Source: Bryobacter sp. CoA8 C33
GTDB taxonomy: Bacteria > Acidobacteriota > Terriglobia > Bryobacterales > Bryobacteraceae
DNA length: 41,309 nucleotides
Assembly (NCBI GenBank): GCA_019931185.1
Contig: JAINDK010000045.1
Coordinates: 1 to 41,309 of the forward strand
Direction: 5' to 3'
The translations under genes and the position numbers were made by a program. Below the pieces are notes generated by a model, which did not search any database, had not been told where the DNA came from, and saw only the letters and a program-made list of their open reading frames with translations. Shown piece after piece: positions 6,756 to 14,968 of the stretch (the first letter of the stretch is position 1; each line of letters starts with the position of its first letter).

Positions 6756-7930
6756 ATCAGGCCTTAGCCCGCCGCCGCTTCCTCGAGTTTCTTGCCGCCA
6801 GCCCCCTGCTGGCACAGCAGCCGCCGGCCAAAGACACTGGGATGCAGGATATCTTCAACGTGATGGACTTCGAGCCCCGCGCCAAGGCAGCCATCGCCCC
6901 CGCTCACTGGGGATACCTGCGGACCGGCGTGGATGACGACCTCACCCTGCGCGCCAATCGCGCCGCCTTCGACCGCCTCTTTCTGCGCCCGCGCCGCATG
7001 GTCGATGTCTCAAAGCTAGATTCTTCGATCGAACTGTTTGGCCAAAAATGGCCAACCCCCATCGTGCTGGCGCCGGCCGGCAGCCAAAAGGCCTATCACC
7101 CCGAAGGCGAAGCCGCCGTGGCCCGGGCGGCAACGCGATTGAACCATCTGCAAATCCTTTCCACCGTCACCTCCACGCCCATCGAGGATATCGCCAAGAT
7201 TCATCGCCGGCCCATCTGGTATCAGCTCTATCCCACCAGCATCTGGGACAACACCGAGCGCATGGTGCGCCGCGCGGAAGCCGCTGGCTGCCCGGTGCTG
7301 GTCATTACGGTCGATACTCAGGGTGGCCGCAATACCGAGACGGAAGCCCGCTCGGTGGCTCTCGATCCGCGGCCCTGCTCCGCCTGCCATCCCGTCACGA
7401 GCGACGGGCGGCGGGGCCGCCGCATGATGCCCATGTTCCAGGGCTTCCAGACCCAGGAGTTTACCGTTCATAATCCCGCTCAGACCTGGGATAGCATTCG
7501 CCGCTATCGCCAATTGACAAGCATGAAGTTGATCCTCAAGGGCCTCGAGACCGCCGAAGACGCCCGCCTTGCCGTCGAGCATGGCGTCGATGGCATTGTG
7601 GTTTCCAACCACGGCGGCCGCGCCGTTGAGTCCGGCCGCGGCACCCTCGATGTTCTCCCCGAAGTCATGGATGCCACCGCCGGCCGCCTGCCCGTGCTCA
7701 TCGATGGGGGCTTCCGCCGTGGCACTGATATTTTCAAGGCCATGGCCCTCGGCGCTTCCGCTGTTTGCATCGGCCGTCCTTACCTCTGGGCCCTGGGCGC
7801 CTTTGGCGAAGCAGGCGTTGCCCGCGTGCTCGAGATTCTCACCGCGGAGTTCCGCCTCGCCATGACCCAGTGCGGGACAATCCACATCGCCGCCATCAGT
7901 AAATCGCTGGTTGGCTACCATTCCCGCTAA
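6752..7930 (+). CDS. Exported FMN-dependent alpha-hydroxy-acid oxidase/dehydrogenase with a CxxCH motif
   Basis: A 392-aa TIM-barrel flavoenzyme of the L-lactate dehydrogenase/glycolate oxidase family, which oxidises 2-hydroxy acids to 2-oxo acids. The catalytic His and substrate-binding Arg lie in VVSNHGGRAVESGRG. The FMN phosphate-binding region is PVLIDGGFRRGTDIFKAMALGA followed by GRPYLWAL. The N-terminus RRRFLEFLAASPLLAQ is a Tat- or Sec-type signal, so the enzyme is probably periplasmic. Unusually, the mobile-loop region contains CSACH (C209, C212, H213), the classic c-haem attachment motif, which would make it a flavocytochrome. A disulfide or metal site is the alternative. It ends 23 bp before the histidine leader peptide. 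Confidence 0.88.
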   Translation: MNQALARRRFLEFLAASPLLAQQPPAKDTGMQDIFNVMDFEPRAKAAIAPAHWGYLRTGVDDDLTLRANRAAFDRLFLRPRRMVDVSKLDSSIELFGQKWPTPIVLAPAGSQKAYHPEGEAAVARAATRLNHLQILSTVTSTPIEDIAKIHRRPIWYQLYPTSIWDNTERMVRRAEAAGCPVLVITVDTQGGRNTETEARSVALDPRPCSACHPVTSDGRRGRRMMPMFQGFQTQEFTVHNPAQTWDSIRRYRQLTSMKLILKGLETAEDARLAVEHGVDGIVVSNHGGRAVESGRGTLDVLPEVMDATAGRLPVLIDGGFRRGTDIFKAMALGASAVCIGRPYLWALGAFGEAGVARVLEILTAEFRLAMTQCGTIHIAAISKSLVGYHSR

Positions 7931-7953
7931 TACGTGTGCTAACCTTTGGATTC

Positions 7954-8025
7954 ATGGCTTCTGGGCTTCATTTTGATCGGCATCACCATCACCACTGCGT
8001 GATGCGGCCGGCCCACGTGTTGTGA
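7954..8025 (+). CDS. hisL: Histidine operon leader peptide
   Basis: A 23-aa reading frame (ATG at 7954, TGA at 8023-8025) with seven His residues, five of them consecutive (codons 10-14, 7981-7995). It lies directly before hisI and is followed by an intrinsic terminator, the layout of enterobacterial HisL. Stalling at the His codons when charged tRNA-His is scarce would favour an alternative fold that prevents termination. It shares no other similarity with the enterobacterial peptide. The ribosome-binding site is weak (GGA before the ATG), and no clear promoter could be fixed between the flavoenzyme stop and this start. Confidence 0.8.
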   Translation: MASGLHFDRHHHHHCVMRPAHVL

Positions 8026-8091
8026 TCCTCGCGATCCACTTCTCCTCTTAGCCCGCCGCTCTGTACCCCAGCCCGGCGGGCTTTCTGTTTT
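7979..8091 (+). promoter_or_regulatory. Candidate his attenuator leader RNA
   Basis: Within the leader, GCATCAC at 7980-7986 can pair with GTGATGC at 7999-8005. The first arm overlaps the His codons, as expected of a region 1:2 pause hairpin that a stalled ribosome would open. Freed region 2 contains GCGGC (8004-8008), which can pair with GCCGC (8055-8059) in the 5' arm of the terminator. That gives only five base pairs, so the antiterminator is the weakest part of the model. Confidence 0.55.
8050..8091 (+). terminator. Intrinsic terminator of the his leader
   Basis: AGCCCGCCG (8050-8058) pairs perfectly with CGGCGGGCT (8074-8082) around a 15-nt loop and is followed by the T-rich run TTCTGTTTT. 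It lies between the leader peptide stop and hisI, so it can only act as an attenuator or as the end of an upstream transcript. Confidence 0.8.
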
Positions 8092-8111
8092 GCTATCGAA
8101 GGATTTTCATT

Positions 8112-8498
8112 GTGCTGATACCCAAACTTGACTACTCCAAGCTAGACGGCCTCGTCACCGCCGTCATCCAGGACTGGCAAACCAAACGCGTACTCATGGT
8201 CGGTTTCATGAACCAAGAAGCTTTTGCCCGCACCCTCGAGACCGGCAAGTGCTGCTTTTATTCCCGCTCCCGCAACAAGCAGTGGCTCAAAGGGGAATCG
8301 AGCGGCCACTTCCTGCTCGTCCGCGAAATCCGCACCGACTGCGATTTCGATACGCTCCTCATTCTGGCCGAAGCCGTCGGCCCCGGCGTCTGCCACGAAG
8401 GCTATGAATCCTGCTTTGCCAAGCGCCTCAACGAAGTCAACGAATTCGTCTATGTCGACACACCCACCTACAACCCCAACGAGGTCTACCAGCACTAA
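8112..8498 (+). CDS. hisI: Phosphoribosyl-AMP cyclohydrolase
   Basis: HisI (128 aa) opens the adenine ring of phosphoribosyl-AMP, the third step of histidine synthesis. The conserved stretch FYSRSRNKQWLKGESSGHF and the metal-binding CDFDT and GVCHEGYESCF segments are intact. Length matches a stand-alone cyclohydrolase; there is no fused HisE pyrophosphohydrolase domain, and HisE is not elsewhere in the window. The start is GTG at 8112 after GAAGGA at 8098-8103, just beyond the leader terminator. It is the first structural gene of the operon. Confidence 0.95.
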   Translation: MLIPKLDYSKLDGLVTAVIQDWQTKRVLMVGFMNQEAFARTLETGKCCFYSRSRNKQWLKGESSGHFLLVREIRTDCDFDTLLILAEAVGPGVCHEGYESCFAKRLNEVNEFVYVDTPTYNPNEVYQH

Positions 8499-8501
8499 GC
8501 C

Positions 8502-9371
8502 ATGAAGCTCAAACTCGGCATTCCCAAAGGCTCACTCGAAAACGCTACGATCGACATCTTCCGGCGGGCCGGCTTTCAGATCACCACCAGTTCCCGCAGC
8601 TACTTTCCCTCGATTGACGACCCGGAAATTGAATGCATGCTGATCCGCGCTCAGGAAATGGCCCGCTATGTCGAGGACGGGATCCTCGACGCCGGCTTGA
8701 CCGGCCGCGACTGGGTCGAGGAAAACAACGCCGATGTCGTGGCCGTTTCCGACCTCGTCTACAGCCGCGCCAGCTTCTCGAAAGTCCGCTGGGTTCTGGC
8801 CGTCCCCGAAAACTCCCCCGTGCATAGCGTGCGCGATCTCGAGGGCAAGATCATCGCCACCGAACTGGTCGGCGCCACCCGGCGCTACCTCGAACGCAAC
8901 GGCGTAACGGCCAAGGTGGAATTCTCCTGGGGCGCCACCGAAGTCAAGCCGCCCGTGCTCGCCGACGCCATCGTCGAGGTGACCGAAACCGGAAATTCAC
9001 TCCGCGCCAACAAGCTGCGCATCGTGGAAACCATACTCGAGTCCAACACCCAGCTCATTGCCAACAAGGCCAGCTACCAGGACCCCTGGAAGCAGCGCAA
9101 ACTCGCCGACATGAAGCTGCTGCTCGAAGGCGCGATTGCCGCTCTCGGTAAAGTCGGGCTGATCCTTAACGTCGAGCGCGAGAACCTCGATCAGGTCATC
9201 GCCGTCCTCCCGGCCCTCAAGAAACCAACCATCAGCCAACTCTCCGACCCCGGCTGGGTGGCCGTCCACACCATCCTCGATGAAACGACAGTGCGCACGA
9301 TCATCCCGCGCCTCAAGGAAGCTGGCGGCCAGGGCATCGTTGAATATCCGCTGAACAAGATCATCGTCTAA
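8502..9371 (+). CDS. hisG: ATP phosphoribosyltransferase, long form
   Basis: The first committed enzyme of histidine synthesis, joining ATP and PRPP. At 289 aa it is the long, self-sufficient form: two periplasmic-binding-like catalytic lobes ([21 protein letters not shown] at the N-terminus, [18 protein letters not shown] as the PRPP loop) followed by a C-terminal regulatory domain (from about residue 215) that binds histidine for feedback inhibition. No HisZ subunit is therefore needed. It starts 3 bp after the hisI stop. Enzyme-level feedback would act alongside the transcriptional attenuation proposed upstream. Confidence 0.95.
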
Positions 9372-10618
9372 TGGCACTTCTACGCATCCTCCCCCGCTCC
9401 CGCGCGACGAGCCTCCTCAAGCGCCGACAGGTCCAATTGGCCGAAGCCGTCGCCACCGTCGAGCCAATTCTCGCCGCCGTCGAGCGCGATGGCGACCGGG
9501 CTCTGTTTGAATATGCCCGGCGCTTCGATGGCTTCGACCGCAAGTCCCCCCGCGTCAGCCCAGCCGAGTGTGCCGCCGCGGCTAAAACGCTTTCCCCCGC
9601 CTTTGTCAAAGCGGTCCGCGCCGCCGCGGCCAATGTCCGTGAGTTCGCCCGCTTCCAGCTGCCCAAACCGGGCACGATCGAAGTCGCCCCGGGCTTGAAG
9701 CTCGGCTACGTGGTGCGGCCCCTCGAAACCGTGGCGGCCTACATTCCCTCCGGCCGCTATCCCCTGCCTTCAACTCTCGTCATGACGACGCAACCCGCCC
9801 AGGTGGCCGGCGTCAGCAATATCTGTGTCACCAGCCCCCGCTTTGTTCCCGGGATCTTCGGCGCCGCTCACCTGCTTGGCGTAACGAATGCCTTCCTGCT
9901 CGGGGGCGCCCACGCGATCGCCGCCTTCGCCTTTGGCACCCGCACCGTACCCCGCGCCGACCGCATCGTGGGCCCGGGTAACATCTATGTCGCCGCCGCT
10001 AAGAAACTGCTCGCCGGACAGGTGGGCATCGATTTCATCGCCGGCCCCACCGAGATCCTGATCATCGCCGGCCAAGGCAATCCGCGCTGGATCGCCGCCG
10101 ATATGCTCGCCCAGGCCGAGCATGATACCGATGCCGCCGCGATTCTGCTGACACCCGATTCGACCCTCGCCGCCGAGGTGGCCGCCGAGGTCGAACTCCA
10201 GCTCGAGACCCTTCCCACCGCCTCCGTCGCCCGCACCGCCATCCGCAAGAACTCGGCCATTCTTCTTGTCGACAGCTTGGAGGAAGCCTGCGAGCTTTCC
10301 AACCGCTTCGCCCCCGAACATCTCTCGATTCCCTCGGCAAAGTATCTGAAGCAGATCCAGCACGCCGGCGGTATCTTCATCGGCGGCTACTCGCCCGAGG
10401 CGGCGGGAGACTATGCCAGCGGGCCCAACCACGTGCTACCCACCAGTGGCGCCGCTCGCTTGCGCGGCGGCCTCTCGGTCACCGACTTCGTCAAGATCAT
10501 CACCACCCAGCAGTTGAGCCCGGGCGCTCTGCGCGCCCTCGCCCCCAGCATCACCACGCTCGCCCGCGCCGAGGGGCTCGAGGCTCACGCCCGCAGCGTG
10601 GAGGAGCGTTTACGCTAA
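9371..10618 (+). CDS. hisD: Histidinol dehydrogenase
   Basis: A zinc enzyme of 415 aa that oxidises histidinol to histidine in two NAD-dependent steps, the last reactions of the pathway. Family hallmarks are VGPGNIYVAAAKKLLAGQVGID, GPTEILIIA, DMLAQAEHD, the catalytic region RFAPEHLSI, and GPNHVLPTSGAARL near the C-terminus with its zinc-binding His. Length is slightly below the common 430 residues but no motif is missing. The start overlaps the hisG stop by one base (TAATG). Confidence 0.95.
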   Translation: MALLRILPRSRATSLLKRRQVQLAEAVATVEPILAAVERDGDRALFEYARRFDGFDRKSPRVSPAECAAAAKTLSPAFVKAVRAAAANVREFARFQLPKPGTIEVAPGLKLGYVVRPLETVAAYIPSGRYPLPSTLVMTTQPAQVAGVSNICVTSPRFVPGIFGAAHLLGVTNAFLLGGAHAIAAFAFGTRTVPRADRIVGPGNIYVAAAKKLLAGQVGIDFIAGPTEILIIAGQGNPRWIAADMLAQAEHDTDAAAILLTPDSTLAAEVAAEVELQLETLPTASVARTAIRKNSAILLVDSLEEACELSNRFAPEHLSIPSAKYLKQIQHAGGIFIGGYSPEAAGDYASGPNHVLPTSGAARLRGGLSVTDFVKIITTQQLSPGALRALAPSITTLARAEGLEAHARSVEERLR

Positions 10619-11691
10619 TGGATCTGCCCCGTCCCAAACCACGTCCCGCCATCGAGCGCATGGCCGCCTACCACCCGCCGAGTTCGGGCCGGGCCGGTAA
10701 ACTGCGGCTCGACTTTAACGAAAACACAGTCGGCGCCAGCCCCCGCGTCGTCAGCAAACTCCAGCAAGTGCTCAGCGCCGATGCCCTCACGGTCTACCCC
10801 GAGTACACCGAAGTGCTGCCCGCCCTGGCCCGCTTCTTCGAGGTCGCCGAAGATGAGCTGATTCTCACCAACGGCACCGACGAAGCCATACAGGTGCTTA
10901 TCAATGCCTACGTCGACAACGATGACGATGTACTGATCCTCACCCCCAGCTATGCCATGTATCGCTTCTACAGCGAGGTCGCCGGCGCTCGCGTCCGCAC
11001 TCTGCCCTACAAGCCCGATACGCTCAAGTTCCCCCTCGAAGAGCTTCTCGCCGCCATTCGGCCCACCACCAAGGCCATCCTCATCTCCAATCCCAACAAC
11101 CCCACAGGCACCGCGCTCAAACGCGAGGGCATCGAACGCATTCTCGACAAGGCCCCCGAAGCCGCCGTGCTCATCGACGAGGCCTACTTCGAGTTCTGCG
11201 GCATCACCATGCTGCCATACCTGAACGAGTATCCCAACCTCTTCGTCAGCCGCACCTTCTCGAAGGTCTACGGCATGGCCGCCCTGCGCGTCGGCTGCCT
11301 CTTCTCCTGCGCGGAGAACATGGCCGCCCTGCACAAATCTCACTCTCCCTATTCGGTCAACTACCTCGCCGCCATCGCCGCCCGCGCCGCGATCGAAGAT
11401 ACCGCTTACCTCAAAAGCTTTGTCACCGAAGTGCTGGCCGCCCGCGAAGTGCTTACCGCTGGCCTCGAAAAGCTGGGCGTCCCTTATGTTCCTTCGCAGG
11501 CCAATTTCGTCCTCATGCACATCGGCCCGCGCGCCCAGGAAGTCTGCGACCGCCTCAAGCTCGAGGGCATCCTCGTGCGCAACCGCGGCTATGAGATCCC
11601 CGGCGCCGTGCGCGTTACCGTCGGCACCCAGGAGCAGACCCGCCGCTTCCTCATCGCTCTGGCGCCGCTCTGGCAGGAGATCCAGCGATGA
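10618..11691 (+). CDS. hisC: Histidinol-phosphate aminotransferase
   Basis: A PLP-dependent class I/II aminotransferase (357 aa) converting imidazole-acetol phosphate to histidinol phosphate with glutamate as amino donor. The PLP lysine lies in SRTFSKVYGMAALRVG. SNPNNPTGTALKREG, IDEAYFEF and the C-terminal RVTVGTQEQTRRF complete the fold-type I pattern. The N-terminal LDFNENTVGASPRVV matches HisC. It starts by TAATG overlap with hisD and ends in ATGA overlap with the phosphatase gene. Confidence 0.94.
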   Translation: MDLPRPKPRPAIERMAAYHPPSSGRAGKLRLDFNENTVGASPRVVSKLQQVLSADALTVYPEYTEVLPALARFFEVAEDELILTNGTDEAIQVLINAYVDNDDDVLILTPSYAMYRFYSEVAGARVRTLPYKPDTLKFPLEELLAAIRPTTKAILISNPNNPTGTALKREGIERILDKAPEAAVLIDEAYFEFCGITMLPYLNEYPNLFVSRTFSKVYGMAALRVGCLFSCAENMAALHKSHSPYSVNYLAAIAARAAIEDTAYLKSFVTEVLAAREVLTAGLEKLGVPYVPSQANFVLMHIGPRAQEVCDRLKLEGILVRNRGYEIPGAVRVTVGTQEQTRRFLIALAPLWQEIQR

Positions 11692-12335
11692 GCCGCCCGA
11701 TGCTCGTCTTCGACATGGACGGCGTCCTCGTCGAGGTCAAGGAGTCTTATCGTGAATCCATCCGCGCCACCGTGCAACACTTCACCGGCCGCGAGCCCTC
11801 TCACGCCCTCATCCAGGACTACAAGAATCGCGGCGGCTGGAATAACGACTGGAAGCTGTCCCAGGAGCTTTGCCGCATCGAGGGCCACCACATCGCCTAT
11901 GACACCGTCATCGAGGTCTTCAATCAATATTTCTTCGGTCACGACGGCGTGCCGGGCCTCATCCTGCGCGAGCGCTGGATCGACTCAAACGGCGTGCTCT
12001 CCCGCCTGAATGACCGCTTTGACTTCGCCGTCTTCACGGGCCGCCTCCAGCAGGAAGCCCGCATCACGCTCGCGCGTTTCGCCACGCATCTGCGCTTTGC
12101 CGAAGTCATCGGCGACGATGACGTCTCGCGCTCCAAGCCCGACCCCGAAGGCCTGCTGACCCTCCAATCGCGTCACAACGTCGTCTACTACCTCGGCGAT
12201 ACGGTCGACGATGCCCGCGCCGCCGCGGCGGCCCGCGTTCCTTTCATCGCCATCACCGCGCCGGGCGGTGACTTCAGCGGCTTAGCCCCGGCCCACTTTC
12301 TCACCAGCATCAACGAACTGGAGACCATCCTCTAA
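11688..12335 (+). CDS. HAD-IA phosphatase within the his operon, candidate histidinol-phosphatase
   Basis: A 215-aa haloacid-dehalogenase phosphatase. The motifs are intact: [13 protein letters not shown] (nucleophile and acid Asp), [10 protein letters not shown] (motif II), SKPDPEG (motif III Lys) and [12 protein letters not shown] (motif IV). It is embedded between hisC and hisB with 4-bp and 1-bp overlaps, and no other histidinol-phosphate phosphatase (HisN, PHP type or HisB-N) is in the operon. I infer that it removes the phosphate of histidinol phosphate. It is not closely similar to the HisB N-terminal phosphatase domain, and a phosphoglycolate-type housekeeping role remains possible. 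Confidence 0.85.
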
Positions 12336-12922
12336 TGCGCACTGCAGCCATCGAACGCATCACCAAGGAAACTCAGATCCGCGCCGCCCTCAAAATCGAG
12401 GGTAAGGGCAAGTACACCATCGCCACCGGCGTCCGCTTTCTCGACCACATGCTCGAGCTTTTCACCCGCCACGGTGGATTCGACCTGAAACTCGAGGCCA
12501 CCGGCGATCTCGATGTCGATCAGCATCACACGGTCGAGGATACCGGTATCGTTCTCGGCCAACTCTTCAACCAGGCTCTCGGCGACCGCAAGGGTATCAA
12601 CCGCGCCGGCTACTTCGTGCAGACCATGGATGAAACCCTCGCCGTCACCGCCGTCGACTTGGGTGGCCGCCCCGCTCTCGTTTATAAGGACCTCGTCCGC
12701 GTGGTCCACATCGGCGACCTGCAAACCGAACTGCTGCCCGATTTCTTCGACGGCTTTACCCAGCACGCCAAAGCCAACCTGCACGCCAAAGTGCTCTACG
12801 GCCGCTCCAATCACCACAAGATCGAAGCTATCTTCAAGTGCTTTGCCCGGGCCATGAAATATGCCTGCTCCAAGGATCCGCGGCTGAAAGACCAGTTGCC
12901 CTCCACCAAGGAACTGCTGTGA
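12335..12922 (+). CDS. hisB: Imidazoleglycerol-phosphate dehydratase
   Basis: A manganese enzyme (195 aa) that dehydrates imidazoleglycerol phosphate to imidazole-acetol phosphate. Metal-binding motifs are complete: [28 protein letters not shown], and [17 protein letters not shown] near the C-terminus. It is the monofunctional form, with the phosphatase supplied by the separate HAD gene just upstream. It starts in TAATG overlap and ends in GTGA overlap with hisH. Confidence 0.95.
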
Positions 12923-13515
12923 TCTCCATTCTCGACTATGGCGCCGGCAATCTGCGGTCCGTCCAGAACACGCTCGCCGAGCTGGGCGCCAGCTACCGTC
13001 TCATCGACACCCCCGAGGCGGTGCTCGCCGCCGGCAAGCTCATCCTGCCCGGCGTCGGCCATTTCGGCCAATTGATGGCCGCTCTCGATTCCCTCCGCCT
13101 GCGGGAGCCGCTTCTGGCCAAAATCGCCGCCGGCACCCCGTTTTTCGGGATCTGCCTCGGCATGCAAGCCTTGTTCTCCGCCAGCGACGAAGCCCCGGAG
13201 CTGAAGGGCCTGGGCCTGTACCCGGAGCGCATTGAACGCTTTCCCGCCACGGCGCGGGTACCCCACATGGGCTGGAACTCGCTCGAGGCGCGCCCGGGCT
13301 CCAAACTCCTCGCTGGCCTTGCCGGCCCCATCTACGTCTACTTCGCCAACAGCTACTACGCGCCACCCGTGCCCGCCACGGCCGCCATCTGCCACTACCA
13401 ACTCCCTTTCACTGCCGTCATCGAGCAGAACAACGTCTACGGCGTGCAGTTTCACCCTGAAAAATCCGGCCCCACCGGCTTGCGCATCATTCGTAACTTC
13501 TTGGAGCTCGCCTGA
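12919..13515 (+). CDS. hisH: Imidazole glycerol phosphate synthase, glutaminase subunit
   Basis: A class I glutamine amidotransferase (198 aa) that produces ammonia for HisF. The nucleophile Cys is in [12 protein letters not shown] and the catalytic His in [23 protein letters not shown] is the typical N-terminus. The start is a GTG at 12919 overlapping the hisB stop (GTGA). An in-frame upstream ATG inside hisB would add 27 residues unlike the family and is rejected. The gene ends in TGATG overlap with hisF, its structural partner. Confidence 0.94.
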
Positions 13516-14276
13516 TGCTCGCCAAACGCATCATCCCCTGCCTCGACGTCACCGCCGGCCGCGTCGTCAAGGGCGTCAACTTCGTCAACCTGCGTGATGC
13601 CGGCGACCCGGTCGAGCTCGCCGAGCGCTATAACCTCCAAGGCGCCGACGAAGTCGTCTTTCTCGACATCACGGCCAGCTCCGACGAACGCACCACCATG
13701 GTCGATGTCGTCTTCCGCACCGCCCAGCGCGTCTTCATCCCCCTCACCGTCGGCGGCGGCATTCGCCAGGTGCGCGACGCCCGCAAGATCCTGGTTTCCG
13801 GCGCCGATAAAGTCAGCGTCAACACCGCCGCCGTCCGGCGCCCCGAACTCATCACCGAACTCAGCCGCGAATTCGGCGCCCAAGCCGTCGTACTCGCCAT
13901 CGACGCCCGCCGCAAGGCCGATTCCTGGTCGGTCTTCACCAAGGGCGGCCGCGTCGACGAGTCCATCGATGTCATCGAATGGGCCCAGCGCGGCGAGGCT
14001 CTCGGCGCCGGCGAAATCCTGCTGACATCCATGGATACCGATGGCGTCCAACGCGGCTTCGACTGCGCTCTCACCCGCGCCGTCAGCCGCGCCACCCGCA
14101 TCCCCGTCATCGCCAGCGGCGGCGGCGGAACCCCCGAACACTTCCTCGAAGTGCTGACCACCGGCGAAGCCGACGCCGCTCTGGCTGCCAGCATCTTCCA
14201 CTACGGCACTTACACCGTCAACGATCTTAAGGAATTCCTCGATCGTCACAATATCCCCGTCAGGAAAAACGCATGA
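13515..14276 (+). CDS. hisF: Imidazole glycerol phosphate synthase, cyclase subunit
   Basis: A TIM barrel (253 aa) that uses ammonia tunnelled from HisH to close the imidazole ring, giving imidazoleglycerol phosphate and AICAR. Catalytic Asp residues lie in [15 protein letters not shown] and in [15 protein letters not shown]. The phosphate loops [11 protein letters not shown] and [12 protein letters not shown] are present. Length is normal for the family. It overlaps hisH by one base and hisA by four. Confidence 0.96.
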
Positions 14277-14968
14277 TTGTTCCTTGTATTGATCTTCAGG
14301 ATGGCAAGGTCGTCCAACTTGTCCAGGGCAAGAAGAAGGCCCTCGAAGGGGAAGAGCCGCTCGTCATGCTGGCCCGCTTCGCCGGGTTCCCTGAAATCCA
14401 GGTCATTGACCTCGATGCCGCCATGGGCCGCGGCGCCAACGACTCCATCGTCGAACTGCTCGCCGGCCGCGCCCGCTGCCGCGTCGGCGGCGGCGTACGC
14501 AATGCCACCCGCGCCCGCGCCCTCATCGATCAAGGCGCGGCGCAGGTCATCGTCGGCACCGCTGCCTTTACCCGCGATGGCATCCACCAGGAAACCCTCC
14601 AATCCATCGCCGGCTCCATCGGCCGCGAGCGCGTCCTGATCGCCCTGGATTCCTTCGCCGGCAAGATCGTCGTCAAAGGCTGGCAGGAATCCACCAACCT
14701 CGCCGCCATCGAGGTCCTGCGCCAACTCGAGCCCTACTGCGGCGGTTTCTTGTGTACTTATGTTGACAAGGAAGGCATGATGCAGGGTACCGACCTCGAC
14801 TGGTTCCGTCAGTTGCGCGCCGCCACTACCCTGCCCATCACTGCCGCCGGCGGTATCACCACCATTGACGATGTCAAGGCACTGATGGCGCTCAATATCC
14901 ACTCCGCCCTCGGCATGGCCATCTATACCGGCCGCCTATCACTCGAAGATCTCCGCCGATTGCTTTAA
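14273..14968 (+). CDS. hisA: ProFAR isomerase (HisA), divergent form
   Basis: A (beta/alpha)8 isomerase (231 aa) that performs the Amadori rearrangement of ProFAR to PRFAR before the HisHF step. The first catalytic Asp is in [16 protein letters not shown] and the phosphate loops are [13 protein letters not shown] and [11 protein letters not shown]. The second active-site segment reads [15 protein letters not shown] instead of the usual bacterial TDISRDGTLxG; it has the Asp but resembles the FLVHGVDVEGK pattern of plant and fungal HisA. The function is secured by position as the last gene of the operon, by ATGA overlap with hisF, and by sequence. Confidence 0.9.

Follow-up and report, generated by a model that had tools for sequence, protein, structure and literature searches.

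The histidine operon in the DNA analysed here (the window, 41,309 nt) is preceded by a short His-rich open reading frame (ORF), a GC-rich hairpin with a T-rich tail and a possible helix that competes with that hairpin. We read this arrangement as a ribosome-mediated transcription attenuator of the his operon with a probability of roughly 0.85, judging its function from sequence and predicted folding. Three of the parts by which such an attenuator is recognised are present: a short ORF with a run of end-product codons, an intrinsic terminator between the leader and the first gene (evident in the sequence), and an antiterminator competing for the terminator (evident in sequence and folding). This is a known mechanism in an apparently unreported lineage. 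The phylum is the one given by an earlier sequence-only reading of this DNA, as the named relatives closest to its HisI are MAGs with Bryobacter, Bryobacteraceae or Acidobacteria in their titles, at up to 86% identity. The features are the following.

7937–7945, forward strand: extended −10-like promoter element (TGC-TAACCT), 8 nt before the leader ATG
7954–8025, forward strand: leader peptide ORF MASGLHFDRHHHHHCVMRPAHVL, 23 codons from ATG 7954 to TGA 8025, the frame conserved in six species
7981–7995, forward strand: five consecutive His codons, the proposed sensor (further His codons at 7969–7971 and 8014–8016)
7996–8012, forward strand: putative antiterminator 5′ strand inside the leader ORF (paired at 7996–7999, 8001–8002, 8004–8008 and 8010–8012)
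8024–8036, forward strand: small GATC-N5-GATC hairpin that overlaps and follows the leader stop, intact in five of six genus members and with N6 in one
8038–8046, forward strand: ACTTCTCCT, between the leader stop and the terminator, invariant in all six genus members
8050–8091, forward strand: intrinsic terminator, arms 8050–8058 and 8074–8082, then TTCTGTTTT
8051–8065, forward strand: putative antiterminator 3′ strand, overlapping the terminator 5′ arm (RNAduplex)
8100–8103, forward strand: Shine-Dalgarno-like AGGA of hisI, from sequence
8112–14968, forward strand: presumed regulated operon hisI-hisG-hisD-hisC-HAD hydrolase-hisB-hisH-hisF-hisA (NCBIfam names)

The leader peptide contains seven His residues, at codons 6, 10–14 and 21, of which five are consecutive; the 23-residue frame proposed in the sequence-only reading is borne out in this respect, as is its hairpin with a T-run followed by hisI, which starts with GTG at 8112. 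Among the six species, CAT and CAC replace one another at the leader His codons and the sole indel in the frame is one codon in length. Variable columns fall at the three codon positions in the proportion 8, 9 and 13 of 25, giving the whole frame no strong third-position bias. An upstream GTG start for the leader was considered and dropped, such starts not being common to the genus. Five-His runs give 12 matches in the organism's own genome, and among the ten loci fetched the only ATG-started frame of 60 aa or fewer over such a run is that of the leader itself. Within the operon, a HAD-family hydrolase is encoded at 11688–12335, between hisC and hisB; it is a candidate histidinol-phosphate phosphatase by its position, and no such model passes the cut-off. 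The scanned operon proteins include no hisE. The genome has a single PRA-PH match, located away from the operon (contig C42, 23581–23814), at 37.1 bits within a 264-codon open frame, and this may represent hisE or a MazG-like protein.

Conservation of the leader was assessed upstream of hisI across the class. A HisI match is present in 96 of 101 genomes, the window's own included, and of the 97 matches listed we read 90 regions (again including the window's own), leaving out the seven weakest. An ATG-started ORF with at least three His in eight codons lies upstream of hisI in 73 of these 90 regions, with at least four in 65 and at least five in 57. The same test on dinucleotide shuffles returned 43, 3 and 0 of 1800 at these three thresholds, regions further upstream gave 3, 2 and 2 of 180, and in the reverse complements a frame with at least three His was found in 0 of 90. 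By these comparisons, the His-rich leader before hisI is not a chance occurrence. Had the His run or the terminator failed to recur in relatives, the sequence-only reading would have fallen by its own account; the opposite is found, since both leader and terminator are kept in five of five same-genus relatives with a hisI match (two further same-genus genomes have no such match) and recur across the class. We then enlarged the set with 61 of 80 regions from named contigs, the rest being identical to earlier ones, giving 151 distinct upstream regions. Leaders that reach the three-His threshold are found in 119 of the 151 (73 from the first 90 regions and 46 from later loci), corresponding to 116 distinct peptides.

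The ATG leader is absent by this test from 17 of the 90 regions. In twelve of these hisI is followed immediately by hisD, an order that differs from the window's (L014, L027, L034, L041, L042, L046, L058–L060, L068, L075 and L077), and two have the hisI-hisG order with no leader (L026 and L056). The remaining three comprise a region with only 260 nt of upstream sequence (L022), one with a His-rich TTG frame (L065) and one with a short ATG frame containing two His (L052). Four of the regions in hisI-hisD order without a His leader (L034, L041, L042 and L068) share a different short frame, which reads ...TLTPWFWRK, about 150 nt before hisI.

The terminator recurs with the leader. Between the leader stop and hisI, a terminator-like hairpin at dG ≤ −10 is found for 107 of the 119 leaders compared with 35 of 357 shuffles, and at dG ≤ −15 for 100 of 119 compared with 6 of 357. 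For eleven of the 12 leaders below the threshold the stretch searched reached only as far as the hisI start, and the arms can be seen by inspection, while the twelfth (L090) scored −0.4; a laxer and longer search, run without a shuffle control, returned a stem in all 119. In 80 of the 119 the terminator begins 22–31 nt past the stop codon, and this places it outside the reach of a ribosome parked at the stop. The spacer itself yielded two candidates that we rejected. A conserved spacer hairpin, an idea taken from the GATC-N5-GATC element of the genus, has a class-wide mean MFE of −3.73 compared with −3.50 (p = 0.37; 118 of 119 spacers), and base-pairing between ACTTCTCCT and the Shine-Dalgarno site of hisI, judged by eye only, is short and L004 lacks the AGGA. 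No Rfam family reaches its gathering score in the window, and accordingly there is no T-box covariance-model match there.

A leader and hairpin so close to a gene might instead act on hisI through translation or reinitiation, with ribosome density around the start of hisI, and not transcription termination, as the controlled step. The leader stop is just 86 nt from hisI, and reinitiation has been proposed for short leader ORFs; as set out in the relevant part of that work, however, it is proposed for short distances, with a peak near 10–16 bp (PMC4833913). The hairpin in the window has a T-rich tail and sits upstream of the Shine-Dalgarno-like site of hisI, and hairpins with T-rich tails accompany 107 of the 119 leaders, which argues against an effect on translation and makes it improbable.

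The start of the leader transcript can be placed from a promoter-like element. A TATACT-like element ends 8–9 nt before the ATG in 84 of the 119 leaders, 75 of the 84 matching at five or more of the six positions, whereas shuffled upstream sequence gave a mean of 9.5 and a maximum of 21 in 50 trials. The hexamer in the window matches TATACT at only four of six positions, and each of the six genus members has TGnTAnnCT 7–8 nt ahead of the ATG. A Shine-Dalgarno-like 4-mer precedes 9 of the 119 leaders. The window leader has the combination by which leaderless mRNAs are recognised, namely a −10 element 7–9 nt before the ATG and no Shine-Dalgarno site. A transcript normally begins about 7 nt after its −10 element, so that the leader RNA would start at or within a few nucleotides of the AUG, and on the position of this element the leader mRNA is probably leaderless. 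A generic promoter scan of a 2.5-kb stretch found nothing, and the TATACT-to-ATG spacing signal is not visible genome-wide in the organism's own genome (85 matches compared with 91 for a control pattern). Leaderless genes were predicted in 2011 to make up 9.7–19.4% in three Acidobacteria, according to the figures given in that study (PMC3160421).

The sequence-only reading had considered the antiterminator its weak point, having found only five base pairs. This was an underestimate: RNAduplex pairs leader codons 15–20 with the terminator 5′ arm through 14 bp at −19.5 kcal/mol. Class-wide inspection by eye shows that many leaders end in R-R-A or similar and that the corresponding codons often resemble the terminator 3′ arm, GGCGGGC, so that two copies would compete for one GCCCGCC. 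We therefore compared registers with each leader anchored on its stop codon and each arm on CCCG, rather than on the pairing (114 of 119 were usable and five had no anchor). One register is 68% paired, compared with 36–49% in the other 15, and by this measure the antiterminator strand tends across the class to lie at one particular distance from the stop codon of the leader. Natural combinations of leader and arm are 0.677 paired compared with a maximum of 0.672 among 200 arm swaps, a small effect. The register in the window's genus is about one codon off the class mode and is interrupted by mismatches. The contrast is weaker against mononucleotide shuffles of the antiterminator segment (−17.1 compared with a mean of −12.8, sd 4.0, n = 119) because the segments are GC-rich, and the register test is the better guide.

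Covariation lends the antiterminator modest support. In another family than the window's (f11; ten of eleven loci, with L186 left out) the helix is 98% paired compared with 31.5–48.9% for slid versions, a comparison that favours it because the helix was read off the same alignment on which it was scored. The compensatory changes that the sequence-only reading had proposed as a check are seen at one antiterminator pair, which varies between CG (five), UA (three) and UG (two); 35 of 500 shuffles reach the real covariation score, 234 of 500 the number of doubly changed pairs and 454 of 500 the number of pair types.

The terminated transcript or the His-rich peptide could additionally work in trans, as a small mRNA or sRNA or as a metal-binding peptide, with his regulation being only part of its role. 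There is a precedent in rnTrpL of Sinorhizobium meliloti, which starts at the AUG and whose peptide is described as having a role in trans in the part of that work concerned with it (PMC7298713), and the leader RNA discussed here also appears leaderless. Outside the genus, however, the peptides vary widely by eye except for the His codons and a frequent R-R-A-like end, and this end encodes the antiterminator strand. Nothing that we tested lends support to a target in trans, and such a second role seems more remote than an effect on translation.

Under the attenuator reading, RNA polymerase would start on the leader ATG or no more than a few nucleotides from it, and a ribosome would load straight onto the 5′ end. 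Given ample charged tRNA-His, the ribosome would reach the UGA at 8023–8025 and cover codons 15–20, whereupon 8050–8058 would pair with 8074–8082 and transcription would end in the U tract. Under a shortage of tRNA-His, the translating ribosome would stall on the His codons, initially codon 6 or codon 10, freeing 7996–8012 to pair with 8051–8065 before the terminator 3′ arm exists, and the polymerase would read through into hisI. We modelled these ribosome states on transcripts cut before the 3′ arm, taking the chance that the terminator 5′ arm pairs upstream (n = 119). The class mean is 0.80 for a ribosome placed on the first His and 0.65 for one on the run's last His, compared with 0.24 for one on the stop codon and 0.68 when no ribosome is present, and the corresponding values for the window are 0.78, 0.77, 0.002 and 0.75. 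The first His exceeds the stop codon by more than 0.3 in 105 of the 119 leaders and the last His does so in 83, while the stop is not lower in two. Because blocking more RNA must lower pairing somewhat, the middle segment was shuffled as a control: the mean fell from 0.80 to 0.58, the real value being higher than the shuffled mean in 113 of 119 and higher than all ten shuffles in 49.

Folding with the ribosome placed at the His codons, a check proposed in the sequence-only reading, thus gives the anticipated difference between stalled and terminating ribosomes, but the same model fails on the E. coli his leader used as a positive control. There it returns 0.74 for the first His, 0.21 for the last, 0.72 for the stop and 0.00 with no ribosome, and the known switch is not reproduced; the measure ignores the extra hairpins of the E. 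coli leader. For this reason we treat the ribosome-state model as weak evidence and have slightly lowered our confidence in the attenuator. When the full-length window RNA is folded to equilibrium, the terminator is preferred in each ribosome state tried (Pterm 0.99), which means that the switch would have to be kinetic, decided during RNA synthesis. The consensus fold of the genus pairs the start of the ORF with its end, as a protector stem would; across the 119 leaders no clear protector stem was seen in the no-ribosome state, in which the 5′ arm stays paired upstream at the 0.68 given above.

Signals from the single sequence are mild or at chance: the window region alone folds only mildly better than its shuffles (z = −1.96), and a generic terminator scan of the 2.5-kb stretch found 2 compared with 2.2 expected. 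The case for the attenuator is a comparative one. The FMN-dehydrogenase gene upstream of the leader (stop at 7930) was found in L001, L002, L004 and L005 and is absent in L003 and L006. That the element is merely a chance His-rich frame beside an ordinary terminator of this gene, an idea to which the mild fold and the gene's end 23 nt before the leader might lend colour, can be dismissed, as L003 and L006 keep leader and terminator with no such gene upstream and the His-rich leader in 73 of 90 regions already contradicts it.

Similar leaders are found beyond the class. Twenty-nine loci from other classes (L172–L200) were read, of 77 genomes with a HisI match. In seven hisI-first operons among them the leader has five or more His in eight codons (L172, L174, L178, L181, L183, L185 and L197), four others have no such leader (L175, L177, L179 and L199), and at a further seven loci, where hisF precedes hisI, there is no leader at hisI. 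Of 29 hisG loci (L222–L250), 13 contain a frame in which four or more of eight codons are His, although here the whole loci were scanned on either strand and with no control. By eye, four of these loci (L230, L231, L236 and L237) have two tandem His-rich short ORFs upstream of hisG, each followed by a hairpin and a T run, and are possible double his attenuators. All four have GAGG shortly before the first leader ATG, also by eye, so these tandem leaders may not be leaderless. On contigs titled Acidimicrobium-like, Ferrithrix or Actinobacteria, leaders are found in five of eight cases (L109, L128 and L163–L165) and not in L159, L160 or L167. The titles of the five contigs are Acidimicrobiales, Acidimicrobiaceae, Actinobacteria or Ferrithrix, and in L163–L165 the leader end pairs fully with the terminator arm GCCCGTCG. 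The His leaders on these contigs may reflect transfer, shared descent or a binning error.

The element shares with enterobacterial hisL (Rfam RF00514, His_leader) a His run in a short ORF, a terminator before the first his gene and a competing antiterminator. It differs in having hisI rather than hisG as the first gene, a probable leaderless start and an antiterminator strand in the last codons of the ORF. The RF00514 model matches E. coli at 131.6 bits and none of 19 other loci at the gathering score, and it is not listed for 7900–8150 of the window even at E up to 10. The sequence-only reading saw no further similarity to the enterobacterial peptide, and by eye none is visible between the acidobacterial peptide and E. 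coli hisL, MTRVQFKHHHHHHHPD, beyond the His run. With neither an RF00514 match nor peptide similarity outside the His run, an origin independent of the enterobacterial his attenuator is plausible, if unproven. A fuller scheme, which we offer tentatively and which may well prove wrong, is that the his attenuator of Acidobacteriota is independent of that of Enterobacteria and would work from an mRNA that starts at the AUG, with the antiterminator in the last leader codons, the terminating ribosome as the sole switch element and no need of a protector; the leaders of other classes, some of them tandem, would then be descendants or repeated inventions.

His attenuators have been predicted in 17 species of Firmicutes, in the Bacillus cereus group, Eubacteriales and Erysipelotrichales (PMC9413887). 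According to the sections describing them, these are likewise comparative-genomics predictions with 3–5 His codons in a row, a terminator and an antiterminator, and there too RF00514 has no match in the phylum; they belong to another phylum, and those sections do not mention a leaderless start. Leader ORFs at the RNA 5′ end, several with a terminator downstream, are described in the relevant parts of work on trpL1, leuL and ilvL of Streptomyces (PMC8079986) and trpL of S. meliloti (PMC7298713). These leaders concern other amino acids and phyla, and their start sites are mapped, whereas ours is placed from the −10 element. Actinobacterial trp attenuators resemble the present one in a simple GC-rich terminator and an antiterminator that share short complementary triples but respond to tryptophan rather than histidine, and the abstract describing them names no his attenuator (PMC1262725). 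The hisD leader of C. glutamicum AS019 has no His leader peptide, as described in the passage dealing with it (PMC3896937). Among openly licensed papers we found no published his attenuator for Acidobacteria. Work by Lopatovskaya et al. in 2010 may already include such cases, so that we claim no priority, and a conference title cited in a reference list concerns His leader peptides in Actinobacteria.

The attenuator, if it operates as proposed, would extend control of his genes by leader peptides beyond Proteobacteria and Firmicutes, and it shows why annotation based on RF00514 misses such leaders. The class also supplies numerous natural versions of a single switch, probably with a leaderless start, and these would make it testable how ribosome loading on a leaderless RNA can be fast enough to match the polymerase.
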